The notes under the pieces are model-generated. The model was not told the origin of the DNA and made no database searches. It saw only the letters and a list, made by a program, of their open reading frames with translations. From NCBI RefSeq assembly GCF_003713065.1, contig NZ_CP033433.1, positions 3,039,001-3,103,000 on the forward strand: a stretch of DNA of 64,000 nucleotides. Reading direction: 5' to 3'. The position numbers and the translations under genes are program-made. This document shows positions 9,402 to 54,768 of this stretch, in pieces. How positions within the stretch are numbered: the stretch's first letter is position 1; each line of letters opens with the position of its first letter. Source of the stretch: Cohnella candidum (GTDB lineage Bacteria > Bacillota > Bacilli > Paenibacillales > Paenibacillaceae).

Positions 9402-9754
9402 CGCTCTCTCCTCCATCGTCTTCTTGCCCGGCCCCCGGCCGGTCGGCAAAAAAATAAAGGCCCTTCCTCCCCGTAAGGGACGAAAGGACCGTGGTACCAC
9501 CCTTGTTGGAATGCCGCGGCTGTCATCAGCCGCCCGCCGAACCCGGCAAAAGCATTCCCGCTTCCGCGGCGTAACGGGCCGCTGCCGGTTCCCCCTACCC
9601 GCTTCCGAACGCGCCAGGCGTTCTTCCGTTTCAGGGGACTGCTCCGGAGTGAATTTCAGCAGCCTGGTTTCCTAGGAACGCTTCCAGTCTCCGGCGTTCC
9701 CTCCCTGTAAGAAGGCGCTGCTTACTTGTCTCCATCTGCGCATTTGCAAGATTT
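9402..9754 (-). ncRNA. T-box riboswitch leader of pheST, Phe (TTC) specifier
   Basis: The 14-nt T-box AGGGTGGTACCACG is read on the minus strand at 9490-9503. It is followed by a terminator (9447-9489) whose 5' arm overlaps the T-box side, the usual competing structure. The candidate specifier codon is TTC (9651-9653) in the context GAAATTCACTCC, before the GGAGC segment of Stem I. Uncharged tRNA-Phe should stabilise the antiterminator and allow pheST expression. It fills the 420-bp gap upstream of pheS. Confidence 0.92.
9447..9489 (-). terminator. regulated terminator of the pheS T-box
   Basis: On the minus strand GGTCCTTTCGTCCC pairs with GGGGAGGAAGGGCC around a TTAC loop (two or three G-T or mismatched positions), followed by TTTATTTTTTT. 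Confidence 0.88.
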
Positions 9755-13908: not shown

Positions 13909-14096
13909 ATTAGCGGGAAATACTCCTGTTAATTTCCACGTTTTTCTGTTTTTTAGAAAAACAATTGGAAAAGTTCCCACTAATCCCGTGCATGAAAGCT
14001 TATCAAGGCAACATGGGCAAAATTAGTGGGAGCTTTTCCCTTAATTTTGCCTAATTACTCATTTACCGATAAATTAGCGGAAAAAATCCCACTAAT
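13909..14096 (-). repeat. dispersed ~190-bp palindromic element, copy 1
   Basis: Four imperfect palindromes with arms like ATTAGTGGGA and TCCCACTAAT lie at 13909-13933, 13962-13984, 14022-14045 and 14073-14096 (start-to-start 53, 60 and 51 bp). Read on the minus strand, they match in order the four palindromes of copy 2 at 54580-54768. Two of the three spacers are also alignable; the 37-nt middle spacer is the same length in both. It lies between the copCD upstream region and the terminator of the gamma-glutamylcyclotransferase gene, in a 490-bp gap with no gene. Confidence 0.8.
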
Positions 14097-54579: not shown

Positions 54580-54768
54580 ATTAATAGGATTTTCTCCCAC
54601 TAATCGTTCACTATAGGAGCACCTCGATCAAATAGTGGGAAAATATCCCACTAAAAACGCCCTTGACGCCTTTCTTGTCATTCACGCACGGTATTAGTGG
54701 GAACTTTTCCAACTAATCTTCTAAAAAGCGTTGAAACGCAGAAATTAGTGGCATCTTTTCCCACTATT
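54580..54768 (+). repeat. dispersed ~190-bp palindromic element, copy 2
   Basis: Four palindromes at 54580-54604, 54631-54655, 54693-54717 and 54744-54768 (start-to-start 51, 62 and 51 bp). They match copy 1 (13909-14096) in the opposite orientation. The third has arms ATTAGTGGGA and CCAACTAAT with ACTTTT between, nearly identical to its counterpart at 13962-13984. The 37-nt middle spacers share their ends (GCCC... and CACGG). Located between the PAP2 gene and the trmB terminator; no gene in this 310-bp gap. Confidence 0.82.

Follow-up and report, generated by a model that had tools for sequence, protein, structure and literature searches.

Palindrome arrays with 51- and 62-bp spacing in Paenibacillus-like bacteria and a candidate partner protein with a predicted nuclease fold and a winged helix

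Background

The spread and persistence of short palindromic repeats in bacterial genomes is an open question, for which REP sequences and TnpA-REP provide the best-studied case. In the REPtron (REP/REPIN with TnpA-REP/RAYT), short palindromes are dispersed through extragenic DNA with a cognate gene beside some of them, the repeats co-evolve with the protein, and the gene is rare on mobile DNA (PMC8266576, PMC3116915). In EDxHD homing endonucleases and Vsr, the nuclease is joined to a region that binds DNA (PMC3943268). MITEs, of which Bacillus cereus bcr1 is an example, are dispersed non-coding elements in Firmicutes (PMC3733652).

Here we describe two intergenic elements of four palindromes each, together with the protein family that accompanies such elements. 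The likeness to REP/RAYT includes a cognate gene beside a copy, extragenic dispersal, co-evolution and, here too, a gene that is rare on mobile DNA. In contrast to the HUH Y1 transposase of REP/RAYT, the enzyme has a predicted Vsr-type nuclease fold and a winged helix; the repeats form tetrads with 51- and 62-bp spacing or tandem arrays, there are several paralogs per genome, and recognition would be of the double-strand type. Membership of REP/RAYT was rejected: the HUH Y1 transposase (PF01797) had no match in this genome and was found in 5 of 14 control genomes, and inspection by eye of the outer flanks found the GTAG tag within 6 nt on the left, or CTAC within 6 nt on the right, in 0 of 13 copies. 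With the EDxHD homing endonuclease I-Bth0305I and Vsr the protein shares the predicted nuclease fold and conserved acidic and histidine residues; it differs in its MarR-like winged helix as the binding domain, in linked sites that are multi-site arrays, and in being chromosomal, multi-paralog and absent from the phage records and viral contigs searched. Unlike MITEs such as bcr1, the arrays are of multiple types, each specific to a paralog, that obey a single spacing rule and are accompanied by a dedicated nuclease-like gene.

Neither repeats nor protein were found described in the titles and abstract openings of the matches listed from open-licence PubMed Central, subscription papers and preprints lying mostly beyond that scope. 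This is apparently an undescribed, large family of palindrome arrays in Paenibacillus-like bacteria, each type with its own nuclease-like protein. It looks like a new kind of repeat-spreading system, since the nearest known kind, the REPtron, has a different defining enzyme, within the limited reach of the literature search.

Results

The window is the whole 64,000-nucleotide stretch of DNA that was analysed. The sequence-only reading had reported two elements in it, each with four imperfect palindromes of about 25 bp, and both were recovered where it had placed them. Copy 1 (13909-14096; covariance-model score 150.7 bits) consists of palindromes at 13909-13933, 13961-13984, 14022-14045 and 14073-14096, and copy 2 (54580-54768; 156.2 bits) of palindromes at 54580-54604, 54631-54655, 54693-54717 and 54744-54768; no strand is assigned to elements or palindromes. 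The spacing of copy 2, measured start to start, is 51-62-51 bp as claimed, and that of copy 1 is 52-61-51 bp on the plus strand, a small correction to the earlier 51-60-53 read on the minus strand. The opposite orientation of the copies stands (68% identity over 204 bp, inverted), but each element is itself roughly dyad-symmetric, with AAAA centres mostly in palindromes 1 and 2 and TTTT centres in palindromes 3 and 4. Both copies lie in gene gaps, as had been said. Copy 1 separates a CopC-domain gene from a GGACT gene, co-directional on the minus strand; copy 2 sits between convergent PAP2 (plus) and Methyltransf_4 (minus) genes.

A scan of the window for palindrome chains, requiring at least 5 of 10 arm pairs, gave its top scores to copy 2 (26.5) and copy 1 (14.5), followed by 8.0 for the next chain; the highest score in 60 first-order Markov shuffles was 9.0. 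Copy 1 is the more degenerate copy, since copy 2 alone passes the stricter setting of 6 of 10 arm pairs. The sole Rfam match in the window at gathering scores is a T-box leader at 9473-9747 on the minus strand. About 1.9 kb to the left of window base 1, at G000:C1:3036501-3037127, is a paralog of the partner gene described below, which is probably a decayed copy because it has one in-frame TAG.

BLAST, followed by a covariance model (R1) built from 12 copies (alignment A2), recovered 13 full copies in the 5.29-Mb single-contig Cohnella-like genome, scoring 114-163 bits on the better strand; weaker matches are also present, the best (2614118) at 33 bits. These copies and the same architecture in relatives bear out the proposal that one element was copied. 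The architecture is strict. Copy length is exactly 189 bp in ten copies and 188-190 bp in the other three, thus 189 ± 1 bp in all. Mean pairwise identity among the 12 aligned copies is 69-77% in the palindromes and 33-34% in the three spacers (chance 25%). Palindromes are thus conserved around near-random spacers of fixed length, indicating that spacing is held, at about 51-62-51 bp, and spacer sequence is not. No two copies in this genome are more than 79% identical, which marks them as old and gives no sign of recent movement here; among the matches listed, younger copies occur elsewhere, at up to 91% identity in G045 and about 90% in G018 and G005. An exactly symmetric version of the palindrome pattern had no match anywhere in the genome. 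By crude gene calling, six copies lie in convergent gaps, seven in co-directional gaps and none in divergent gaps, and all seven co-directional ones are closer to the 3' end of the upstream gene. Inspection of the flanks of copies fixed no clear element boundary and established no target-site duplication. A tandem array of palindromes with a period of about 51 bp and the core GGGAAAAAGTCCC was seen at G000:C1:1710554-1710706, with no recognised paralog adjoining it.

The sequence-only reading had offered a structured RNA as one option, and this one fails. When the four-hairpin structure was imposed on the 12 aligned copies, 77.3% of pairs were standard against 79.6% in shuffled columns (499 of 500 shuffles were as high), and the covariation score was 0.081 against 0.110. 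Compensatory changes in the stems did not rise above the shuffles in these 12 copies. Two alternative foldings, counted separately, with stems between adjacent palindromes or one stem across the whole dyad, likewise showed no excess over shuffles. All three foldings have more paired cells than versions of themselves slid by 1-3 columns, which is to be expected of any palindrome. A mismatch in one arm is usually not compensated in the opposite arm, in keeping with degenerate protein sites, and an Rfam search found nothing at the element. A structured RNA is unlikely because its stems are without covariation.

The candidate partner emerged from clustering ORFs near high-scoring copies in nine genomes. 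One uncommon ORF family lies 0-182 bp upstream of a copy in five of them (G000, G005, G018, G031 and G045), one of which belongs to another family-level group; the other clusters near copies are common families, such as transporters and regulators. In this genome the gene is at G000:C1:91182-91850, outside the window and directly upstream of one copy, and the neighbours of this gene-linked copy are common to G000 and G018. The protein has about 225 residues. It matches DUF559 (PF04480) at residues 65-133 (27.4 bits against a cut-off of 20.6), followed by weak winged-helix matches. This cut-off is passed by two of the five proteins (this one and that of G018), the match being below it or absent in the other three, and a DUF559 match at E <= 0.1 is present in 17 of 24 family members. 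An AlkZ-like Pfam match on the winged helix (26.0 bits against a cut-off of 25.9) is barely above threshold; we rejected an AlkZ-like identity and take the match to reflect the winged helix alone.

A predicted structure of the homologue from Cohnella sp. CFH 77786 (pLDDT 85.9, pTM 0.59) comprises a nuclease-like domain at residues ~1-140, a loose linker and a winged helix at ~150-217. A second structure aligner matched the nuclease domain of this predicted model best to the catalytic domain of I-Bth0305I (3r3p; Z 11.2, 97 residues, rmsd 2.5 Å) and also to NGO0050 (Z 10.6); the best matches of the winged helix are MarR/MepR-type regulators. TnsA of Tn7 likewise combines a nuclease with a winged helix. 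It was the top row in Foldseek, which gave no match below E 0.001, at a weak E of 0.0015 with TM-scores of about 0.2. We rejected it as it was barely ahead of the next rows and missing from the best 50 matches listed by the second aligner. Across 94 aligned proteins E55, D69 and R104 are invariant, and E82 and H89 are each kept in 93. These near-invariant residues are presumed from the alignment to form the active site. Residue 84, the second after the motif glutamate, is K in 43 proteins, D in 43 and E in 5, and this split may mark two active-site types.

Ten paralogs of the partner protein are encoded in this genome, one with an in-frame stop. Genes and arrays are linked: a tandem-repeat search of the flanks found 50- or 51-bp arrays at four of the ten, starting 31-47 bp past the aligned gene end; two others have a tetrad and one has two palindromes at a distance of 51 bp, with no clear array at the remaining three. 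The linkage was also measured at 97 loci: within 800 bp of the gene, pairs of similar palindromes were counted for each spacing between 30 and 90 bp. Downstream of the gene the spacing peaks at 51 bp (22 loci), 52 bp (10) and 62 bp (8), with none at 53-60 bp. Pairs at any of 50-52 bp occur downstream at 30 of 97 loci and upstream at 5; without six loci whose array was known beforehand (L148, L149, L150, L151 and L154, found via arrays, and L244), the counts are 25 and 5 of 91. The set leaves out L159 and L163, where contig ends made coordinates unsafe; the remaining fetched loci, 60 in all, were taken mostly in score order with partial matches skipped. A repeat on 79 of 80 GTDB loci (L268 left out) from Paenibacillus, Cohnella, Fontibacillus, Gordonibacillus, Saccharibacillus and other Paenibacillaceae gave 17 of 79 downstream against 4 of 79 upstream. 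At least four genes are common to both sets (L148/L247, L153/L253, L156/L289, L188/L291). When all 176 loci were pooled and scored for chains of at least three palindromes, 56 passed downstream and 11 upstream. A class-wide sample (L373 left out) added three or more further family-level groups with arrays behind the gene (L361, L366, L368). The palindromes differ from paralog to paralog at the same 51/62-bp spacing. The difference between the two preferred spacings is close to one B-DNA turn, which argues for recognition of the double helix. Arrays of paralog types 706108 and 443406 adjoin each other at two places in this genome (G000:C1:118116-118478 and 2841250-2841814).

Palindromes and winged helices co-vary. 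At 55 loci (L247 was left out as the same gene as L148), the distance between half-sites correlates with that between winged helices once nuclease distance is removed (partial Mantel 0.206, p 0.0015), and its correlation with nuclease distance, winged-helix distance removed, is 0.024 (p 0.35). By these sequence comparisons, palindrome sequence tracks the winged helix and not the nuclease domain. At residue 181, the start of the recognition helix, D goes with G at half-site position 9 in 16 of 16 cases, and 9 of the 10 cases of N have T or C there; this rule, spotted by eye and counted on the same 55 loci, has a Fisher p of 3.2e-6, uncorrected for descent. Residue 181 and half-site position 9 each change five times on the nuclease-domain tree. 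The helices of L256 and L269 are closely similar, and the locus with D has ACTGGA and that with N has ACTGTA. A scan of all alignment columns put residue 66, in the nuclease domain, at the top and residue 181 in ninth place; the winged helix contributes 11 of the 20 highest-ranking columns, where 6.9 would be expected.

Among the matches listed, 33 of 60 genomes are hit by model R1 (E <= 0.01) and the partner protein is found in 52 of 60, with up to 15 matches each, this genome being included in both counts. The protein is present in 32 of the 33 tetrad-positive genomes and 20 of the 27 negative ones (p 0.018, among the matches listed); the tetrad-positive genome without it, G058, has a weak match (E 0.0017). 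Tetrads of relatives have the same geometry with genome-specific palindromes, for example with the arms ATTAGTTGTA, CTAAGTGTA and TTTAGCGGCA. Class-wide, 34 of 299 genomes, this one included, encode the protein at E <= 1e-10. A joined query found dispersed arrays of six other paralog types in this genome, beyond the gene-adjacent array, and manual grouping gave 34 further clusters of these six types, some weak.

Array positions vary between species. All 37 genomes of the genus searched, this one included, match at least one of the two genes flanking copy 2. Both flanking genes are present at 14 of 29 relative loci; 12 of these 14 have no array and two have arrays of other types. Nine of the 12 array-less gaps measure about 100 bp or less, L332 and L349 among them having been judged too short for the element from BLAST coordinates, and three measure 205-233 bp. 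The two occupied gaps, L330 (G030) and L340 (G021), hold unrelated palindrome arrays with 51- and 52-bp spacing, and this reuse of one gap in two other species suggests that some gene gaps may be hot spots. At the copy-1 site, both sides are matched by 11 of 29 relative loci, all of them free of arrays; the nearer right-hand gene is covered in three of these (L419, L420, L422). G018, the relative that these searches place closest, has longer gaps of ~1.8 and 4.9 kb among the matches listed, which were left out of the readings of array absence. In the same genome (G018, Cohnella sp. CFH 77786) many tetrads lie inside composite repeats of ~500-600 bp (L089-L105).

A search of 50,697 phage records did not find the protein. 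Among 72,556 plasmid records it has a single match, on a 2.7-Mb replicon, and no relative was confirmed among 44 candidate stretches of viral contigs. The one PHROG match, to phrog_503 of unknown function, is weak (E 1.3e-5 to 3.7e-4, in two of three proteins). A phage origin was rejected on the lack of phage and viral-contig matches, this weak match being all there was.

Discussion

We consider it rather probable that the dedicated DUF559-winged-helix protein has its binding sites in these elements, which would be dispersed, non-autonomous arrays of such sites. Two further options of the sequence-only reading each survive in part: a non-autonomous mobile element, in that the arrays are insertion-variable between species and cognate to a nuclease-winged-helix protein, and a DNA-architecture site, in that they are phased with the DNA helix. 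We strongly infer that arrays are bound by their cognate protein, and the nuclease might mobilise them. A MarR-like winged helix would bind each 25-bp palindrome as a dimer. Because sites are 51 or 62 bp apart, five or six turns of B-DNA, bound dimers would be placed on one face of the helix, and a tetrad or tandem array could assemble a multi-dimer complex. The domain with the Vsr/homing-endonuclease fold would make DNA breaks, by which arrays might be copied into, or lost from, the gap DNA behind genes; the resemblance of the fold to homing endonucleases suggests such break-driven copying. Each paralog would have its own palindromes and its own array family. We give about even chances to the fuller reading of a repeat-spreading system, in which several paralogs per genome each write and read their own helically phased array with a decodable recognition-helix code, residue 181 reading G as D and T as N.

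It is also conceivable, though improbable, that this is a domesticated system for chromosome organisation or gene ends, in which bound arrays shape DNA or insulate gene ends, the nuclease serves rarely or in repair, and spread is incidental. Such a role fits the helical phasing and the conservation of palindromes over diverged spacers, the position of all 13 copies behind a gene or between convergent genes (by crude gene calling), the near absence of the gene from phage and plasmid records and the common neighbours of the gene-linked copy in G000 and G018. Turnover between species and unrelated array types in the same gap would, however, be odd for architecture sites, and the presumed active-site residues are near invariant.

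That a MITE-like element is moved by an unrelated transposase and merely used by the winged-helix protein is much less probable. The dyad symmetry and dispersed non-coding copies do resemble MITEs, and some flank is common to younger copies in other genomes. Against this, many paralogs, among them 7 of 10 in this genome and others elsewhere, are followed on their 3' side by an array of their own palindromes, the palindrome tracks the winged helix, the genome has no Y1 transposase, and one transposase would leave many palindrome types with one geometry unexplained.

Slighter still is the chance that the arrays are decoys that soak up a toxic nuclease in an addiction- or restriction-like arrangement. 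An array does adjoin the nuclease gene in many paralogs; yet inspection by eye of the 25 largest neighbour clusters revealed no gene for a modification or an antidote, dispersed arrays differ between species, and the best PADLOC E-value for three proteins was 0.016. With 25-bp palindromes separated by 26-bp spacers, CRISPR was also a candidate; it was rejected since the spacers of tandem arrays are themselves repeated and the three proteins had no strong PADLOC match. Least probable of all, and largely refuted, is a structured RNA or terminator with the palindromes as transcript hairpins: they are able to pair and lie at gene ends, but pairing and covariation fall below shuffled levels, Rfam has no match, and an RNA would not need spacings that differ by one DNA turn.

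If the reading as a repeat-spreading system is true, the arrays and their proteins would parallel REP/RAYT independently, by unrelated chemistry, and would provide a second, enzymatically unrelated gene-plus-repeat system for comparison. As several paralogs with matched sites coexist in one genome (10 here), specificity, co-evolution and persistence become directly testable, and the paired proteins and palindromes could yield a modular DNA-recognition code.
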